Virus record (IMG/VR): IMGVR_UViG_3300005095_000067
Span: 1 to 45,467 of that record
DNA length: 45,467 nucleotides
Origin: a virus
Strand: one strand, 5' to 3'
In this document: in pieces, positions 31,919 through 41,049 of the stretch
How positions within the stretch are numbered: the first letter of the stretch is position 1
Layout: every line of letters begins with the position of its first letter
Notes under the pieces: model-generated
The model's input: the letters and a program-made list of their open reading frames with translations, nothing else
The model's database searches: none
What the model was told of the DNA's origin: nothing
Made by a program: the position numbers and the translations under genes

Positions 31919-33199
31919 TTACAATAGCCCTTCTGGTCTTTCAAGCTCAGTTGTCTCATCATAGTGCACTGGAATATAGTATTTATCTGTATAGTTTGCT
32001 TTATTAATAGCTACAGTATCATATATTTGTTGTGAGATAGCTTTCTTAACTAATAGGTAATGCACTTCTATTTTATCTTCTCTGTGCAAGTCACACATTC
32101 TAGCTCTTCTTTGTATATACTTGGCTGTCCTGTAATCCATGCTTAGTATAATATGATATTTATATGCAGATAAGTTAACACCTTCAGCATTAGAAGTACC
32201 TTGTAATATTTTAGCCTTTTTAAAGCTCTCTTCTAGTAATACCTTTTCTGCTTGATAGTTATACATAATAACCATATCACTAGTATCCCCCCAAGTATCT
32301 TTTATATACTCATACTTAAATAGCATTTTACGTAAATATATCCATTGGTCATTACCACCATCATCTTGGTATTTAATAGCACTACCTTCTAATTGATGTA
32401 ATTTAGTTCTAACACTAGTAGCAGTATCGGCTTTTATTACTATATCACCAAATTTAAGCATTTTATTTCTAGTTAAACTATTTATTATCTGTTTGAATGT
32501 TTCCGGAGGCTCCACAAAATGTATAATATCATTGGGGTCATGCTCAAACCCAAGATCTTTACGGGTATAAGATATAAATCCATCTTTTATATCCTCCCAT
32601 ACCATATCTTCTTTAGTTTCTTTTCTTTCTATTACTACTCTACCAGCAAAATACTTAGTCTCTGGTATGCCATATACATTATACCAATCAAAGAAACTCT
32701 TATACTGTTTCCACGGTGACCAAGTAGACATTCTAAGTTGGTTATATAACATATAGTAACCTTGAGCATTAGGAGTCGCTGACATAAATATAACTAGTTT
32801 ATCCTTGCACAAGAACCTAGCTACCTTTTGCCTAGAACTGTCAGACTTCTTACGCTGTCCTTTCTTCTTAGTTCTAGTAGTACTACCAAAATTATGCGCT
32901 TCATCTACTATTACTAGTTGATAGTTAGTATCTGGTACATTATCTAAGCTATCCATTGAAAATACTCTATATTCTTTAGTTATAGGTAAATTAGCTAGGT
33001 GCTCTTCCCAACCAGGTATTGCTTTAGCTGGTGTTATAACTAGTACACTTTTTACTTTAGGTAAATCTTCGCATACTTTTATAGCAACACCAGTTTTACG
33101 CGTACGCTCTTCCATAGCAAAATAAACCCAATACTGTTTATAAAGTATATCTATGGCTTCTTTTGCTATATCTATTTGATGCTGGTCATAATTCCACAT
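31919..33199 (-). CDS. SF2 (SNF2/DEAH-like) helicase
   Basis: A 426-residue protein. ATG 33199 overlaps the deaminase stop as TAATG, which I prefer over ATG 33232. Motif I is MEERTRKTGVAIK, a variant of the ExRxGKT form used by phage SNF2-type helicases with Arg in place of the Gly. VIVDEAHN is motif II, FMSATP motif III, and KYIQRRARMCDL motif VI with the arginine finger. ATP-driven DNA translocation or remodelling is expected. It is the promoter-distal gene of the replication block. Confidence 0.8.
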   Translation of the reverse strand: MWNYDQHQIDIAKEAIDILYKQYWVYFAMEERTRKTGVAIKVCEDLPKVKSVLVITPAKAIPGWEEHLANLPITKEYRVFSMDSLDNVPDTNYQLVIVDEAHNFGSTTRTKKKGQRKKSDSSRQKVARFLCKDKLVIFMSATPNAQGYYMLYNQLRMSTWSPWKQYKSFFDWYNVYGIPETKYFAGRVVIERKETKEDMVWEDIKDGFISYTRKDLGFEHDPNDIIHFVEPPETFKQIINSLTRNKMLKFGDIVIKADTATSVRTKLHQLEGSAIKYQDDGGNDQWIYLRKMLFKYEYIKDTWGDTSDMVIMYNYQAEKVLLEESFKKAKILQGTSNAEGVNLSAYKYHIILSMDYRTAKYIQRRARMCDLHREDKIEVHYLLVKKAISQQIYDTVAINKANYTDKYYIPVHYDETTELERPEGLL

Positions 33200-33603
33200 T
33201 ATAATGCCTTGCAACCTATAGCGTGTGACCATAGTATATCTTTAGTACCAGATGAACTGCTTGATATAGTACTATAGTATACATTTTTAATACCTGCATT
33301 TATTATCTTTCTAGCACAATTATTACATGGCATAAGAGTAACATACAAATCGCAACCGTCAGTAGCTATACTATTATTACCACAAAATCGTAATAAGTTA
33401 TCTTCAGCGTGTATAACTGTTTCAATAGTATTAAAGTTTATATCTTCACATACATTAGCAGCACCGGGTAAAGTACCATTATACCCAGTGGCTATAACTC
33501 TATTGTCTTTAACTAGTACTGCCCCTACTTTACGCTTTTTACAATACGAATGCCTACTTATAAGATATGCCATATCCATATGCGTTTGCTGATACTTATT
33601 CAT
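33199..33603 (-). CDS. dCMP deaminase
   Basis: Converts dCMP to dUMP, feeding thymidylate synthesis. It is 134 residues. The zinc and catalytic motifs are intact: H65-A-E67 (VIHAEDNL) and P92-C93-N-N-C96 (LMPCNNCARKI), with GAVLVKDNRVIATGYNG before them as in phage and eukaryotic dCMP deaminases. It overlaps its neighbours by a few bases on both sides. In this genome it would compete for dCMP with the Asp-type thymidylate synthase homologue, as dCMP deaminase and dCMP hydroxymethylase do in T4. Confidence 0.9.
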   Translation of the reverse strand: MNKYQQTHMDMAYLISRHSYCKKRKVGAVLVKDNRVIATGYNGTLPGAANVCEDINFNTIETVIHAEDNLLRFCGNNSIATDGCDLYVTLMPCNNCARKIINAGIKNVYYSTISSSSSGTKDILWSHAIGCKAL

Positions 33604-33953
33604 TGTAAATCCTCAAAGTCTGCTAACTCTTGCTGAAACTTAGTTCTACCAAATACATCATATTCAAGTATAAGCTTAACATCATTTATATTATCTGTAA
33701 CTATGGCTTGGCCGCCAGCTTCAATTACATCATTTAAGAATTCAACTTGTAATGGGTCAGGCTTAGTATACTTATCTCTTTTTACTTCTATTGCTATAAA
33801 TCTACCTTGGTAACATACTAGTATATCAGCTATACCATTAGTAGTAGCTACTATTACTTTTATAACAACTAGGTTTTCTTGTGCTCTTAAAAACTCTAGT
33901 ATCCTAGCCTGTACTTCACTCTCTAATTCACTAGTAACAAATATCTCATGCAT
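33600..33953 (-). CDS. VRR-NUC nuclease
   Basis: A 117-residue single-domain protein of the PD-(D/E)XK fold, VRR-NUC family. SELESEVQARILEFL opens the domain, then TTNGIADILVCYQGRFIAIEVK gives the D...E-V-K catalytic set, and DPLQVEFLNDVIEAGGQAIV the closing helix-strand. Stand-alone phage VRR-NUC proteins act on branched DNA and may resolve replication or packaging intermediates. ATGA overlap with the deaminase gene. Confidence 0.85.
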   Translation of the reverse strand: MHEIFVTSELESEVQARILEFLRAQENLVVIKVIVATTNGIADILVCYQGRFIAIEVKRDKYTKPDPLQVEFLNDVIEAGGQAIVTDNINDVKLILEYDVFGRTKFQQELADFEDLQ

Positions 33954-35193
33954 TTTCGTTATCCTCCTTATCCGCTCTTATTCCTACATATATTGGTATA
34001 GTAAGACTGCCTTCTGGTGTTACTTCATTATATGTAACTTCTATAATTTTACCTACAATGGCATCAGCAAATGCAATTTCACGCTCGTGATCTTTAAACC
34101 CCTGCCCTATATTAACTTTAACAAATTGGTTATTTATAGTACCAGTGCATACAAGACTACCTAATCTAGTACTATTAACTCCAGTACCATATTCCCAAGC
34201 TATGACTTTTAAATCTGCTGTCTTAGCTTCTTTATAGCGCATCCAGTCCCAATCTCGTTTCCATTTGTAATAAAAATATTTAGGCTTAATAACTACACCT
34301 TCATAACCTAAGTCTAGTTCTCTAGCTAAAAACCGTTTTGCCTCCGCTTTACTAGTTACTTCTAATTTAAACACTAAATCATATCTTGTAGGTAGTACTA
34401 ATACTACTGATTTTAGAGCTGTTAATCTATCAACATAATGAGTAGCGCAAAATTTTCTATCCCAGTAGTCTTTATGTATATAGTCTATACAATAAAATTG
34501 TAACTGCTCTTGCTCATGCACAGAAATAGTACGCTTTCTACCCTTAGTAATAAGCCCCTGTACTTTACTTCTAGTACCTAGTTTACCATCTTCTACGCAG
34601 CACTCAACTATCATTACTCCTGGTACATGTTTTACATCAGGTTCTAAATGTGGTAAATATACTCTATGGCCTTCACGAGTATAAAATTTACCTTCTATAA
34701 TATACAGATTATTACCATCATACTTACGCTCAACATAATAGTTATTAGTCTCAATAAACTTACTCCATACTAAGTCTTTAGCCTTCATAACTTTAAATTC
34801 AGTAATAAGTTTAGGTATAACTTTATTTATAGATGCAGGGCCGAGGCTAGCATTTGGTATTTTGCGATTTAAGATAGTATAAGCTATAATACCAAACTCA
34901 TCTATAATATCAACTACTATATTAAATGTGTCATAGCTATTTGTCCTTTCTTTGTCAAGATACTCTATAGCACCAACTAGTCTAATCCAATCACAATTTT
35001 TAGGGTTTAGGTCATACTCATATATTGTTTTTACTGAGACACCATATACATATTTCTTAGTATCATAAGTATACTTAAGAAAGTCTTTTATGACATCATC
35101 TTTAGCATATAACTCTACAAAATGTAGTAAGTCATTGCCGCTTCTTTTTTGTACACCGTTTATAAACTCTAGTATCTTAGAACAGTTTCCCAT
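33946..35193 (-). CDS. ATP-dependent DNA ligase
   Basis: Seals nicks during phage replication. It is 415 residues. Motif I is ERKYDGNN with K157 as the adenylated lysine. Later motifs include FYTREG (III-like), GYEGVVIKP (IV) and a KEAKTADLKVIAWEYG motif V region leading into an OB-fold that carries LGSLVCTG and FVKVNIGQGF. The N-terminal 140 residues are a helical extension unlike the minimal T7 ligase, closer to T4-type ligases in layout. Overlaps the MazG-like gene start by 17 bases. Confidence 0.9.
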   Translation of the reverse strand: MGNCSKILEFINGVQKRSGNDLLHFVELYAKDDVIKDFLKYTYDTKKYVYGVSVKTIYEYDLNPKNCDWIRLVGAIEYLDKERTNSYDTFNIVVDIIDEFGIIAYTILNRKIPNASLGPASINKVIPKLITEFKVMKAKDLVWSKFIETNNYYVERKYDGNNLYIIEGKFYTREGHRVYLPHLEPDVKHVPGVMIVECCVEDGKLGTRSKVQGLITKGRKRTISVHEQEQLQFYCIDYIHKDYWDRKFCATHYVDRLTALKSVVLVLPTRYDLVFKLEVTSKAEAKRFLARELDLGYEGVVIKPKYFYYKWKRDWDWMRYKEAKTADLKVIAWEYGTGVNSTRLGSLVCTGTINNQFVKVNIGQGFKDHEREIAFADAIVGKIIEVTYNEVTPEGSLTIPIYVGIRADKEDNENA

Positions 35194-35566
35194 GCTTATA
35201 CCCTCTCTTTCTATTATATTCAGACTTCCATTTAAGTTGTCTTTCTAAATCTAAGTCTAAGCCACCAACTAAATCCATAAATCTTAGCATGGCATCAGCC
35301 AATTCATCTTCTAGAGTGTCTTTTTGCTCATAACCATTTTTATTTTTTCTCAAAGCTTCTATTGCTTCACTTAACTCTGTTATTATAAGCGCTATTCTAG
35401 CAGTTAATAACTCATTATGTAATTTAAGCTCTTCCTCACTAGTAATACGATCTGCATCTTCTAAATCCATAACCATATCTTCAGACTCCCAAAAACCTTT
35501 CTGTCTCATTTCGTAGTGATGCTCTTTACACGCTTTATTTAGTCCATTTATCATTTTAATCTCCAT
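35177..35566 (-). CDS. MazG-like nucleotide pyrophosphohydrolase
   Basis: A 129-residue all-alpha NTP pyrophosphatase. LLTARIALIITELSEAIEAL provides the first E..E pair, and TLEDELADAMLRFMDLVG the E..D pair that bind Mg, both required by MazG-fold enzymes. These cut (d)NTPs to monophosphates, cleaning the pool or lowering alarmone. It sits among dCMP deaminase, a thymidylate-synthase-family enzyme and a second MazG-fold protein, pointing to control of dNTP composition. Confidence 0.8.
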   Translation of the reverse strand: MEIKMINGLNKACKEHHYEMRQKGFWESEDMVMDLEDADRITSEEELKLHNELLTARIALIITELSEAIEALRKNKNGYEQKDTLEDELADAMLRFMDLVGGLDLDLERQLKWKSEYNRKRGYKHGKLF

Positions 35567-35967
35567 TTTTCTATGCTTGTGCCTTCTATAAAGTAAGTTA
35601 ATATCTGTTTATACTTATCTCTATATCTAAATACTTTACCATTTCTAGTCCTATTACTAGGTGCTCTACTTCTTACTATGTATAACACAGGAGGCCTAAA
35701 ATCAAATGTAGATATCCCTAAATTAATTATACCAGTTTGATGTGCTATTACTGAGTCATACTCATAAATTACGCCATCAGAAATATTAATAACACTTCTA
35801 GGTAAACTGTCATGTACATTTTTACTACATAATATAGACTTATCACTAACCGCTATCATTAGTATAGTCTTATCATTATGTGGTCTTACAGGTAGATTAC
35901 CATTACTATCTATATACTTATCTTCTTGAGATAAAAGCAATAAACCAAAATATTTTTCAGTAAACAT
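35551..35967 (-). CDS. Unknown protein next to ThyA homologue, possible diverged DHFR
   Basis: A 138-residue protein. The order YIDSNGNLPVRP, then ILCSKNVHDSLP, then PPVLYIVRSRAPSNRTR loosely follows dihydrofolate reductase (N-G-x-LP after strand A, the K/R-N-T-W-x-SLP turn, then the strand ending IVLSR). The family's Trp after LP is missing and the protein is about 20 residues short. Its place beside the thymidylate-synthase homologue supports the idea, but I hold it only as a possibility. The alternative is an unrelated nucleotide-metabolism protein. Confidence 0.35.
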   Translation of the reverse strand: MFTEKYFGLLLLSQEDKYIDSNGNLPVRPHNDKTILMIAVSDKSILCSKNVHDSLPRSVINISDGVIYEYDSVIAHQTGIINLGISTFDFRPPVLYIVRSRAPSNRTRNGKVFRYRDKYKQILTYFIEGTSIEKWRLK

Positions 35968-35968
35968 G

Positions 35969-36781
35969 TTAAGCCTTCAACTCAAATTTTAATGTGCCAG
36001 CGTGCTTATATTTAGCTATAGTTAAATCTCTAGGTAAAAATAATCTAGGGTGCATTCTACTTCTAAATACATATTCTGGCTCATCATATATAGGCCTACT
36101 TAAATATAAATGTGCATTATCAATATGCTCTTCATATATATGAGTATCTCCAAGTACCATAGTAACTTTACCTGCTTTTAAATTAGTAGCCCCAGCAAAC
36201 GACAAAAGCATAGCCGCTGCAAATACTGCATCACTAGGTACTCCTACCATTAAGTCTGCGCTTCTTTGATGCCATATCATATCTAAATACTCAGGCTCTG
36301 ATGTAAGTGGATTAAACCTAACATAAAATTGATACATATAATGACAGCATGGTAAGTCAAGATTTGCTTGATTAGCAGGGTCCCAGCCACTTAATAATAA
36401 CCTTCTACTAGTTGGATTATTTTGTATTTCATTTAACAACCAATCTAACTGCAAAAACCCATTAAAGTCATTCCATTTATTGCCATAATCTATGTTTATA
36501 GTACCATTATCTCTAACCCACGTATCCCAGTAATTACAACCAAATATTTTAAAATCTTCTATAGTTTTAGGCCCTCTAATTATAGCAGCATATTCACCAA
36601 GTATACCTTTAGGATACATTTGTCTACCTGTTATCATAGGAAATTTATGATTGCTTAGGTCAAATACCAAAGTAGAATGAAATATACTTCTAGTATTGCC
36701 ATTTCTACCTGCCCTACTATCTCCATAAGCTAATACATTATATACTAAATCTACATATTGTTGCTCAAATGTTTTACTCAT
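35969..36781 (-). CDS. Thymidylate-synthase-family enzyme, predicted dCMP (hydroxy)methylase
   Basis: A 270-residue protein. The fold and active site of ThyA are clear: E63, Y99 (DYGNKW), R126-R127, nucleophile C146-H147 in LPCCHYMYQFYV, R173-S174, H214 and Y216 in GDTHIYEEH. At the position of E. coli ThyA N177, which selects dUMP, the motif reads VGVPSD with D184. Asp there marks dCMP-acting members such as T4 dCMP hydroxymethylase, and Asn-to-Asp mutants of ThyA shift to dCMP (known). I infer a dCMP hydroxymethylase or methylase. A plain thymidylate synthase is the alternative annotation. Confidence 0.75.
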   Translation of the reverse strand: MSKTFEQQYVDLVYNVLAYGDSRAGRNGNTRSIFHSTLVFDLSNHKFPMITGRQMYPKGILGEYAAIIRGPKTIEDFKIFGCNYWDTWVRDNGTINIDYGNKWNDFNGFLQLDWLLNEIQNNPTSRRLLLSGWDPANQANLDLPCCHYMYQFYVRFNPLTSEPEYLDMIWHQRSADLMVGVPSDAVFAAAMLLSFAGATNLKAGKVTMVLGDTHIYEEHIDNAHLYLSRPIYDEPEYVFRSRMHPRLFLPRDLTIAKYKHAGTLKFELKA

Positions 36782-37151
36782 TATTTGTCCTTATTAATTT
36801 ACCTGCACGCATAGCAGCAGACATTCTATCTATCTCTTCATCTGTTATATCACTATCTATAATTAAGCTTCTTTGTTGCTCTCTAAACCATATAAGAAAT
36901 GCTAAGTTAGTTATAGCGTGGTCTAAATGATGTAAGTGTGACTCTTCATCTATAGCATAGCCAGCTCTGTAAGCTTCTAAATGTCTATACAAAGCGTCTA
37001 TATATCGCTCTTCTGCGTTTTCTATTTTTTGCCAATTATTAGCTTCATATTTTTTAGCGCCATAGGTTAATACTTCAGCCAGAGCTTTTATTGCTTCAGG
37101 TGGTACTAAACTATATCTTAGCTTATCTTTATCATGCTTTAAACCATTCAT
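36774..37151 (-). CDS. dATP/dGTP diphosphohydrolase-like protein (DUF5664, MazG fold)
   Basis: A 125-residue protein. KHDKDKLRYSLVPPEAIKAL, EVLTYGAKKYEANNW, RYIDALYRHLEAYRAG and DEESHLHHLDHAITNLAFL follow the DUF5664 pattern step by step. This family, annotated as dATP/dGTP diphosphohydrolase, includes relatives of the MazZ enzymes used by phages with altered purines. Here it more likely trims dNTPs to monophosphates. Overlaps the thymidylate-synthase-family gene by 8 bases. Confidence 0.75.
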   Translation of the reverse strand: MNGLKHDKDKLRYSLVPPEAIKALAEVLTYGAKKYEANNWQKIENAEERYIDALYRHLEAYRAGYAIDEESHLHHLDHAITNLAFLIWFREQQRSLIIDSDITDEEIDRMSAAMRAGKLIRTNNE

Positions 37152-38134
37152 TAGTTAGCTCCTTTTGGGGATTGGTACAATTCTAAATGCCACTTAAAGT
37201 TAAACTTACCATCATTTGTAAAAGTAAGCTTATCTATTTTTACTTGAGTCATATCTGCTAATCTCATAGTTGCTATAAACTCTTGCTCACCTAAACCTTT
37301 AGATATATACTTATTTAATATAATATCATACATTTCAGCTTCACTCATATCAGGGTTTATCATTTTAGCTGCACCTACTTTACCAACACCTGGTATGCCT
37401 TTGTATCCATCTGTTGGGTCCCCAAGTATAGTCTGCCAATATTTATAAAATATAGCATATTTACTACTAGTATTATATAAAGCCTCGTCTGTACCTAGTT
37501 TACCATAGTTTAAATGATTACCTACAGTTTGATTTAATACATCTTTATCCAAAGCTGCCAAAAAGAATTCTTCTGGGTATGTATTACATAAAGATACACA
37601 TACATCATCTGCTTCTATATAATCAAACATCTCACTATTAAAATGCAAAGCCATAGCTTCCATTATAGTAATATACCCGTGTAATGGTTTTGATATACGC
37701 TTATGTTTATACCCATGCTCTAAACTATCATCTGCTATCTCATATCTAAAACATTTAACTATGTTATCGTAACCATACTTTTGTTTATATAAATGAGATA
37801 CTTTTTGTCCTGCAGTTAAGAATAACACATAATCTTCTATTTTAGGCTTTTCTTGAAAATCAACCGGCTCAGCAGTAACTGCTAAAATATCATTTGCATT
37901 ATCAATCATATCATCTATATAATCTTGTACTAGTTGTTTAGCAATTTCAATACTAGTTTCTATAACATAACTATGACCATCTTCATCAGTATGGTGCTCT
38001 AGTCTAGTAGTCTCTAACTCATTACCACTAAAACCATCTTCAGCCTCAAAACCTTTAGCTGCAGCGTCACCTACCACTATACATTTGTCTGCTAATTTAT
38101 ATGCTATACTATCAGCATCAATTACTAGTATCAT
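37151..38134 (-). CDS. 5'-3' exonuclease / flap endonuclease
   Basis: A 327-residue FEN-family nuclease. Metal ligands appear in ILVIDADSIAYKL, YIEADDVCVSL and AALDKDV, and the H3TH DNA-binding motif in LGDPTDGYKGIPGVGKVGAAK. It resembles T7 gp6 in role: degrading host DNA and removing RNA primers. A long insertion after the first Asp (residues about 25-75) is acidic and looks linker-like. Its start overlaps the gene upstream by 17 bases. Confidence 0.88.
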   Translation of the reverse strand: MILVIDADSIAYKLADKCIVVGDAAAKGFEAEDGFSGNELETTRLEHHTDEDGHSYVIETSIEIAKQLVQDYIDDMIDNANDILAVTAEPVDFQEKPKIEDYVLFLTAGQKVSHLYKQKYGYDNIVKCFRYEIADDSLEHGYKHKRISKPLHGYITIMEAMALHFNSEMFDYIEADDVCVSLCNTYPEEFFLAALDKDVLNQTVGNHLNYGKLGTDEALYNTSSKYAIFYKYWQTILGDPTDGYKGIPGVGKVGAAKMINPDMSEAEMYDIILNKYISKGLGEQEFIATMRLADMTQVKIDKLTFTNDGKFNFKWHLELYQSPKGAN

Positions 38135-38591: not shown

Positions 38592-39086
38592 TTATATAGT
38601 TTTATACGGGCCTAACTTCTTTTTACTGTTTTCAGATACAGTTATCCATTGGCAATTATCTTTACTATAGTTACCATTGTTATCAATTCTATCTATAGCT
38701 AAAGTATCTTTGTATTCAGTATATGTAGCGTCAACATATCCATTAGCTAATGACCAGCTTTCAAAATCAAAAAAATCTGTAAACTCAACTTTTATACCTC
38801 TACCACCATATCTACTATATTTAGGGTGCGCTTTATTAGTACATCTTTGTAACATACCATAGTATACAGCGTATAATTTTGACGCACTCTTGCCGTGTTT
38901 TGTATTATGACCAGACGCCCGGCTACATTGATTACAAGTAGTAGCTTTCTTATATACATCTTTACGCATTTTACTTATAGAACCACAATTAGCACACTCA
39001 ATAGTATAATAAATATAACTTCTACCCTTAGCATTCTTTTCGCTAAACTGCTCTAATATTTTATGCTGGGAGACATTCGTACACAT
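38592..39086 (-). CDS. HNH-type homing endonuclease-like protein
   Basis: A 164-residue protein. N-terminal zinc-ribbon cysteines (CANCGSISKMRKDVY...CNQCSRA) are followed by HPKYSRYGGRGIKV and the signature LAIDRIDNNGNYSKDNCQWIT, common to free-standing phage HNH/homing-type nucleases. It starts at ATG 39086 behind GGAGGT, both inside the last codons of the polymerase gene. Such selfish genes often sit beside polymerase genes. No intron or split in the polymerase is seen, so it is free-standing. Confidence 0.8.
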   Translation of the reverse strand: MCTNVSQHKILEQFSEKNAKGRSYIYYTIECANCGSISKMRKDVYKKATTCNQCSRASGHNTKHGKSASKLYAVYYGMLQRCTNKAHPKYSRYGGRGIKVEFTDFFDFESWSLANGYVDATYTEYKDTLAIDRIDNNGNYSKDNCQWITVSENSKKKLGPYKTI

Positions 39087-41049
39087 TACATTCTACCTCC
39101 AATGGGATATCATCATACTTAAAGTAATCAGATTTAATAGTTTCAAACCAAGCCTCTTCCATACAAGACTTTACTAGGGTTTTGTAATACTCCGCTTTAT
39201 CTTCTGGTACATCTAAATATACCGCATCATGCAAAGGGAATATGAAATATTTTAAAAATTCGCCTTTACTTTGCATAACTAGTTTATGTATAGCTAGTTT
39301 ATAAATATCAGCTGCTGACCCTTGTATCATATTATTAATACCATCTGTGACGTACCTTGGTTTTGTGATGCGGCCGTATACAGTTGATACTAGCAATGGA
39401 GCTCTTCTCTTTAAATGATAGTGAGCTTTTATAAAATACTCTAATGCTCTGTCGACTTCAGGGTATGTATCTAAGTAAGTAGAATGTATACGCTTTGACT
39501 CATTTAATGTATACTTTAAACCGTAGTTAACATAAGCATAATCTTGGAAAGTTCTAGCTTGCATTCCAAAGGCTAAGCCGAAGTTCACTGCCTTCGCTTT
39601 AAATCTCTCTTCAGAGTCAATCTCTGATACATCTAAACCGCTTAATGATGCTGCAGTAGCCATATGCAAATCTATCTTAGCTTTTAATTTACCATACATT
39701 ACATCTTCTGCTTCCCACCAGTACTTATCTAATTTTACATTGTTTACTAGTAGCGAGTTATACTTAGATAAGTTCTTTCTTAAGTTAGGATATATACCAG
39801 CAATAGCCCTAAGCTCAATAGTAGGATAATCAGCACCAACTATAACATTACCAGTCCTAGGTATAAACATATTACGACGTGCTCTAGGTATTTGTTGTGT
39901 ATTAACGCCTCTAAATGTACCTTCACCACTACTAGTAAATCTGCCTGTTGCTGCCCCACCAACATTATAATTTGATACAACCCAGCCATGTTGATACTTA
40001 GATAGCATACCATATGACTTTAGTGCTCTACGCAATTTAAATATAATATCTGCTAGCTGTCTTACAGTCTCATTTGGCCCATCATTTGCTAGTTCTACTA
40101 GTGTTTGCTTATCACTACTATGTATATTAGGGGCTAGACCACTAAGAGCCGCTTTACATTGAACTGAAGATCGTACATTCAAATCACCATAACCTAAGTC
40201 ATCTAGTTTTTGTTTATATTCTCTAATAGTTTCATCATCCTCTTCCATACCTTTTTGAATTAGTACAGTATTAGTATACATCTTATGCTGTTGATAGAAA
40301 CTAGCGTACTTCTGATTTATGACATCTAACTTATACACTGGTTTATTACGCGCATTCTGTATTCTACTTTGATAAAATACACAGGCTGTAGCAATAGCAT
40401 CAGCAGCTGCATAATTGTATTGTGTATCTGTTAATTCATCAGCACCAAAGTTTGATTTTTGAGTACCCTTTTTATCTATAGTACCATATATATCATCATA
40501 CACACCAAACGCTTTAACCATACTATCTAAACCTTTATCTTCCATATATGGAAATGCTAACCTAGATAAATATAAAGTATCTTCTATAAAATATGGTAGC
40601 TTATTAGGCCTTATTATCTTTAAATCGTAAGCTGCATTATGATATACTACTATATTATTATCTAACATATCTATGACTTGTGATTTTATGTCTAAGTCAG
40701 CTATGTCAAATACATATACAGTATCATCTTTATAAGCAGGTGCATATACAGATATAAGTCTGCATTTAACTAGTGGTATAGCTTTACCTTTGTTATCATA
40801 ACCATTAAAATCATCGTCTAATTCACCAGGTTTATATTTAAATGTTTCTGTATCCACAAATATAATAGTTTCTTTTAATGTGAACATATCAGATACTACA
40901 TCTCTATGCTCTATTATATCCATAGTATCTTTTAATACTATTATTTTGTAGTTTTTCCAAATTTCATTAGTCAAGAAAGGCCGAGCATATTCTTGTATAA
41001 ACTCGGCCGTTGGGGTCTTGACATCATAATAGCTGACATCAAGCTTCAT
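39061..41049 (-). CDS. Family A DNA polymerase with 3'-5' exonuclease
   Basis: The replicative polymerase, 662 residues, T7-like in size. The proofreading domain has D66 and E68 (FVDTETF), NAAYD at 138-142 and Y213/D217 (YNYAAAD). Polymerase motifs: TGRFTSS (368-374), motif A D407 in VGADYPTIELR, motif B R482-K486-F490 in RFKAKAVNFGLAFG, motif C H607-D608 in PLHDAVYLD. The usual Glu after HD is Ala, and Phe at 490 predicts good discrimination against dideoxynucleotides. No thioredoxin-binding insert is obvious. Confidence 0.93.
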   Translation of the reverse strand: MKLDVSYYDVKTPTAEFIQEYARPFLTNEIWKNYKIIVLKDTMDIIEHRDVVSDMFTLKETIIFVDTETFKYKPGELDDDFNGYDNKGKAIPLVKCRLISVYAPAYKDDTVYVFDIADLDIKSQVIDMLDNNIVVYHNAAYDLKIIRPNKLPYFIEDTLYLSRLAFPYMEDKGLDSMVKAFGVYDDIYGTIDKKGTQKSNFGADELTDTQYNYAAADAIATACVFYQSRIQNARNKPVYKLDVINQKYASFYQQHKMYTNTVLIQKGMEEDDETIREYKQKLDDLGYGDLNVRSSVQCKAALSGLAPNIHSSDKQTLVELANDGPNETVRQLADIIFKLRRALKSYGMLSKYQHGWVVSNYNVGGAATGRFTSSGEGTFRGVNTQQIPRARRNMFIPRTGNVIVGADYPTIELRAIAGIYPNLRKNLSKYNSLLVNNVKLDKYWWEAEDVMYGKLKAKIDLHMATAASLSGLDVSEIDSEERFKAKAVNFGLAFGMQARTFQDYAYVNYGLKYTLNESKRIHSTYLDTYPEVDRALEYFIKAHYHLKRRAPLLVSTVYGRITKPRYVTDGINNMIQGSAADIYKLAIHKLVMQSKGEFLKYFIFPLHDAVYLDVPEDKAEYYKTLVKSCMEEAWFETIKSDYFKYDDIPLEVECNVYECLPA

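Follow-up and report, generated by a model that had tools for sequence, protein, structure and literature searches.

We propose that a phage-encoded thymidylate synthase (TS) homologue is probably a dCMP C5-methylase, making 5-methyl-dCMP for phage DNA. The gene lies in an IMG/VR virus contig of 45,467 bp, the whole of which is referred to here as the window. Its 270-codon open reading frame (ORF; 35969..36781) is on the minus strand, running from an ATG start at 36781 to 35969, and the opposite (+) strand is crowded with stops. The product belongs to the thymidylate synthase superfamily, matching Pfam Thymidylat_synt (PF00303) with E=9.6e-59 over residues 7-268, and the record contains no other PF00303 gene; a search of the record for ThyX found none. 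Residue mapping identifies a complete TS catalytic set (Glu58, Cys146, Arg126′, Arg127′, Arg166, Ser167, Asp169, His207, and Tyr209), and an AF2 model (pLDDT 96.1) has TS, alone or in DHFR-TS chains, as all of its top 50 PDB matches. The active-site residues given in a preliminary description (C146, H147, R173, S174, H214, and Y216) are correct and correspond to C146, H147, R166, S167, H207, and Y209 of E. coli ThyA (EcThyA); its placing of D184 opposite ThyA N177 is confirmed by a gap-free alignment.

Asp184 (codon GAT, 36230..36232, minus strand) occupies the dCMP-selecting position, which is Asn177 in EcThyA. We collected relatives by tblastn of phage records and two IMG/VR scans, giving 77 distinct sequences including that of the window; Asp is present at position 177 in 75 of these and Asn in two (L086 and L092), and chance or sequencing error at D184 is excluded by this conservation. 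An N177D-type change turns TS into a dCMP methylase (Liu & Santi 1992; Hardy & Nalivaika 1992; both as cited in PMC8670742), and in the MetaGPA study position 177 is one of the two residues that rank highest in distinguishing contigs with modified cytosine from those without (PMC8670742), which supports the earlier suggestion that the enzyme prefers dCMP over dUMP. Judging from its sequence, the TS homologue is very likely specific for dCMP. It is highly improbable that it is an ordinary, dUMP-using TS that tolerates Asp at 177; although the remaining TS residues, the fold, and the tail are all present, dUMP could come from a dCMP deaminase, and two clade members carry Asn177, the Asn-to-Asp change shifts TS to dCMP (as cited in PMC8670742), Asp is kept in nearly all of the clade (75/77), and independent Asp177 lineages accompany modified cytosine. 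The two Asn177 members nevertheless retain Asp93 and Cys145. One of them, L092, is a 235-kb contig that also has a DHFR-like gene and a dNMP-kinase-like gene near the TS gene.

Isolates in the clade include Edwardsiella phage KF-1, Dickeya phage Amaethon, Vibrio phage VPMS1, Pseudoalteromonas phage PH1, and Pelagibacter phage Kolga, and the databases label the enzymes of all five as thymidylate synthase or putative thymidylate synthase. Many clade members come from phages of ~40–48 kb in the Edwardsiella KF-1/Vibrio VPMS1 group.

Asp177 is shared with T4 gp42, a dCMP hydroxymethylase of the TS superfamily with the same dCMP-recognition logic, and we compared the residues that mark the two chemistries. 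The T4 enzyme requires Asp145, three residues before the catalytic Cys, and a Ser two residues before Tyr, and it is without the TS tail; a D145N substitution abolishes hydroxymethylation (PMC6400193). Every oxygen-adding relative that we compared (T4 gp42, two relatives, SPO1 gp29, and a Mosigvirus enzyme) has an acid at this −3 position: Asp in T4 gp42, XG4, Eleri, and SPO1 gp29, and Glu in the Mosigvirus enzyme, whose gene we chose through homology and which is reported as a 5-hydroxy-dCMP synthase (PMC13390438). The corresponding residue is Leu in all 77 clade members and Asn in the Xp12-type enzymes. SPO1 gp29, a dUMP hydroxymethylase and likewise a phage enzyme of the TS superfamily, has the opposite combination to the window enzyme, with Asn177 and Asp at −3. 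At the second residue ahead of the catalytic Tyr, where we looked for Ser or Thr, the TS homologue has Ile, and 75/77 members have Val, Leu, or Ile. Trp83 is kept in 73/77, including the window, and 54 residues follow the Tyr209 equivalent, compared with 55 in EcThyA and 28 in T4 gp42; the full TS C-terminal tail is thus present here and absent from T4 gp42. The window enzyme differs from T4 gp42 at Asp145, Ser94, and Val85 as well as in its tail.

These markers and the phylogeny agree. In a maximum-likelihood tree, the clade groups with TS, apart from both the T4 gp42-type and the Xp12-type enzymes, with PK3/S144 as its near sister (99/93). Of the T4 likeness that had been noted, the Asp at 177 stands, but the hydroxymethylation acid, a Ser94-type residue, and tail loss are all missing, and for this reason we do not favor T4-style hydroxymethylation. 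A different hydroxymethylase is conceivable, in which water would replace hydride to give 5-hydroxymethyl-dCMP, with Asp93 standing in for the T4 Ser94/Asp145 pair. Besides the shared Asp177, one relative is labelled ‘pyrimidine hmase’, and Asp93 is clade-specific, present in 75/77 members at the structural counterpart of T4 Ser94, where it could activate water. We nonetheless consider such an enzyme unlikely, given the lack of an acid at −3 in 77/77 sequences, the retention of Trp83 and the full tail, the grouping with TS in the tree, the absence of a T4-type kinase, and a DHFR-fold partner that would be without a role. A unique coupling of Asp177 with Asp93 was considered and dropped: Asp93 is missing from PK3 and L014 despite their Asp177, and it accompanies Asn177 in L086 and L092. 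Methylation is the likely chemistry rather than hydroxymethylation. The residues, model, and tree fit a TS chassis switched to dCMP through one residue, like the engineered E. coli TS N177D and L. casei TS N229D, in which Asp on a TS-like active site yields a dCMP methylase, although in the window enzyme the Asp is natural and is accompanied by Asp93 and Cys145.

One of the closest known parallels is phage Xp12, whose DNA contains 100% 5-methylcytosine (5mC) by LC-MS (PMC7653180); we used its relative AXL1 as a stand-in for Xp12 (MT664984) in sequence comparisons. The Xp12-type (Bradleyvirinae) enzymes share Asp177 and the lack of an acid at −3 with the window enzyme, and they too are encoded with clustered pyrophosphatase, deaminase, and DHFR genes and no T4-type kinase. 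The gene order is pyrophosphatase-TS-deaminase-DHFR in AXL1 and MazG-TS-deaminase-DHFR in RcRudolph, and the same kit, with DHFR recognized by fold only, is clustered in the window operon. In contrast, the Xp12-type enzymes form a separate branch of the tree, outside the window clade, and have Asn at −3, Pro147, and Phe83 where the window enzyme has Leu, His, and Trp; their genomes are ~64 kb rather than 45 kb, and the DHFR-fold protein is much more divergent here. The retained His147 speaks against a methylase accompanying cytosine modification, as MetaGPA counts position 147 as changed (PMC8670742).

A second parallel is closer in the tree. The TS of Salmonella phage S144 (L106/MT663719), a Loughboroughvirus, is 100% identical to that of PK3, and resembles the window enzyme in having Asp177, Leu at −3, Trp83, the full tail, and an adjacent pyrophosphatase gene; it differs in having Val93, Pro145, and Tyr147 instead of Asp93, Cys145, and His147. 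Only SspI and PacI, whose sites consist of A and T alone, cut S144 DNA, which resists enzymes with C in their sites; from this the authors of the S144 study inferred a cytosine modification for which they found no gene (PMC7432712). They annotated the Asp177 TS homologue as a normal TS, and we regard it as a candidate for the gene behind that modification. The behavior of S144 DNA also lends weight to the earlier proposal that the window phage may carry modified cytosine. In the DNA of the window phage, 5mC probably replaces cytosine. For KF-1 and VPMS1, a literature search for data on restriction or bases gave nothing usable.

The TS gene is embedded in a minus-strand operon extending from an exonuclease gene (38134) to a helicase gene (31919), in which genes overlap or almost abut. 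Three of its genes, coding for DHFR-fold, MazG-like, and dCMP-deaminase proteins, do not figure in the preliminary description. The MazG-like all-alpha nucleotide pyrophosphatase (35177..35566, minus strand; PHROG 3301, E=4e-20) is a candidate dCTPase supplying dCMP, and a pyrophosphatase-like match is present in 74/91 clade loci, often beside the TS gene. The Zn-dependent dCMP-type deaminase (33199..33603, minus strand; PF00383, E=2.9e-24; PHROG 174, E=6e-46) is a candidate for converting either dCMP to dUMP or 5-methyl-dCMP to dTMP. In modified-cytosine contigs of the MetaGPA study, TS co-occurs with dCMP deaminase and a PRA-PH pyrophosphohydrolase (PMC8670742). We did not use as a marker the aromatic residue reported to lie close to the 5-methyl group in the deaminase of Xp12: the Manatee Spring relatives have it, the window deaminase does not, and it is also seen in other deaminases.

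The deaminase raises the possibility of an alternative route to thymidylate, in which 5-methyl-dCMP would be mainly deaminated to dTMP and the DNA would contain little modified cytosine. The genome has no other TS, a deaminase is encoded in 22 of the 24 clade records searched whole and lies near TS in many, and Xp12 converts 5-methyl-dCTP to dTTP (Wang & Ehrlich 1982; Kuo 1982; as cited in PMC12088426). However, in Xp12 this conversion coexists with full 5mC DNA, S144 DNA appears to be cytosine-modified, the pyrophosphatase suits removal of dCTP, and the isolates Kolga and VPMS1 have no PF00383 match; we think it quite unlikely that thymidylate is the main destination.

A PF18909 dATP/dGTP diphosphohydrolase-like gene (36774..37151, minus strand; E=2e-32) overlaps the TS start by 8 nt. 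A 5′-3′ exonuclease gene (37151..38134, minus strand; PHROG 107, E=3e-29) belongs to the same operon of overlapping genes, which also includes an ATP-dependent DNA ligase gene (33946..35193, minus strand; PF01068, E=2e-10; PHROG 114, E=3e-60). If the DNA contains modified cytosine, the family A DNA polymerase encoded in this replication cluster (39061..41049, minus strand; PF00476, E=7e-38) would have to accept modified dCTP. An HNH endonuclease gene at 38592-39086, between the polymerase and exonuclease genes, is probably a mobile homing element. We note that the PF18909 domain is fused to a dCMP-type deaminase in L004:11341-11949 (KF-1 ORF27), L023:5202-5807, and L009:9177-9824; in the window these are two separate genes.

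One nucleotide after the TS gene is an unannotated ORF (35551..35967, minus strand) coding for a 138-aa protein with no database matches of its own. Its AF2 model (pLDDT 84.7, pTM 0.80) has DHFR as all of its top 50 PDB matches in Foldseek (E=2e-7), and D32, which aligns with the catalytic Asp of DHFR, is invariant in 7/7 homologues. Profile matches are weak: Pfam DHFR_1 matches two homologues (E=0.003 and 0.009), and a PDB profile search gave DHFR in seven of eight matches, all with E>=0.07. With curated Pfam DHFR (PF00186), the window ORF has no match and the best homologue scores 17.6 bits against a cut-off of 25. The NADPH Gly-Gly motif is not found in the alignment and the NADPH loop is divergent or degenerate; by these features, the DHFR-fold protein may be inactive. 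The gene adjoins TS in just six of the relatives examined. A DHFR-fold gene is expected with methylation, which yields dihydrofolate; hydroxymethylases yield tetrahydrofolate and require no DHFR (PMC5175136). The minus-strand gene L008:329-1339 is probably mislabelled: its deposited name is ‘bifunctional dihydrofolate reductase-thymidylate synthase’, yet it matches no PHROG family.

The preliminary description saw no obvious kinase or glycosyltransferase, and this is upheld. The T4 gp1-type dNMP kinase (PF21448) is not found in the window, in 23 other clade records, or in AXL1 (it is absent from 24 of the 25 other records examined, T4 being the exception), and there is no glycosyltransferase among the genes scanned. 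It does not follow that the pathway is unusual, as had been suggested: the Xp12-type AXL1 also lacks PF21448, and the window has a near-complete Xp12-type kit. Because AXL1 and the 23 other clade records are without this kinase, its absence is no argument against modification. Kinase-like genes are present near TS in two relatives, L092 and L074; that in the latter (L074:8804-9436) overlaps the TS end and has PHROG family 38514 as its best match, which also matches a pyrophosphatase of the group, suggesting pyrophosphatase-kinase fusions elsewhere.

From the residues, their conservation in the clade, the gene kit, the folds, and the phylogeny we infer the substrate, product, kinase, incorporation, and biological role as follows. 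The MazG-like pyrophosphatase would lower dCTP and supply dCMP, which the TS homologue would bind through Asp184 and, keeping the TS methyl-transfer and hydride chemistry, convert with methylene-tetrahydrofolate to 5-methyl-dCMP and dihydrofolate. The folate would be recycled by the adjacent DHFR-fold protein, host DHFR, or both. Host kinases would raise 5-methyl-dCMP to 5-methyl-dCTP, which the phage polymerase would incorporate in place of cytosine, and the resulting 5mC would block restriction. The deaminase could supply dUMP, or it could act on the methylated nucleotide to give dTMP and dTTP, as happens in Xp12.

Both the Asp177 rule and the chemistry of Xp12 have been published before, and the window system is a variant of these rather than a new kind. 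In the literature we found, whole-genome 5mC made at the nucleotide level in a phage is documented only for Xp12 (PMC7653180). If the proposed pathway is correct, it would have a separate and widespread origin in a clade that includes cultured phages of Edwardsiella, Vibrio, Dickeya, Pseudoalteromonas, and Pelagibacter, accounting for genes currently filed as plain thymidylate synthase, and the Asp177 homologue of S144 would be a candidate for the unexplained modification there. The presence or absence of an acid three residues before the catalytic Cys may predict hydroxymethyl or methyl from sequence, a rule that is testable. More speculatively, and with a rather modest chance of being right, this could be a third, independent natural lineage of cytosine-nucleotide TS in which either Asp93 alters the chemistry to a new hydroxymethylation or the product is mainly deaminated to thymidylate, giving a dUMP-free route to dTTP.

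Two clade members, L107:5001-5783 and L108:5001-5777, are in contigs binned as Gracilibacteria and are open only if TGA is read as Gly. Each has 15 TGA codons and keeps Asp177 (GVPSD), and these are probably phages using the recoded code of their hosts.
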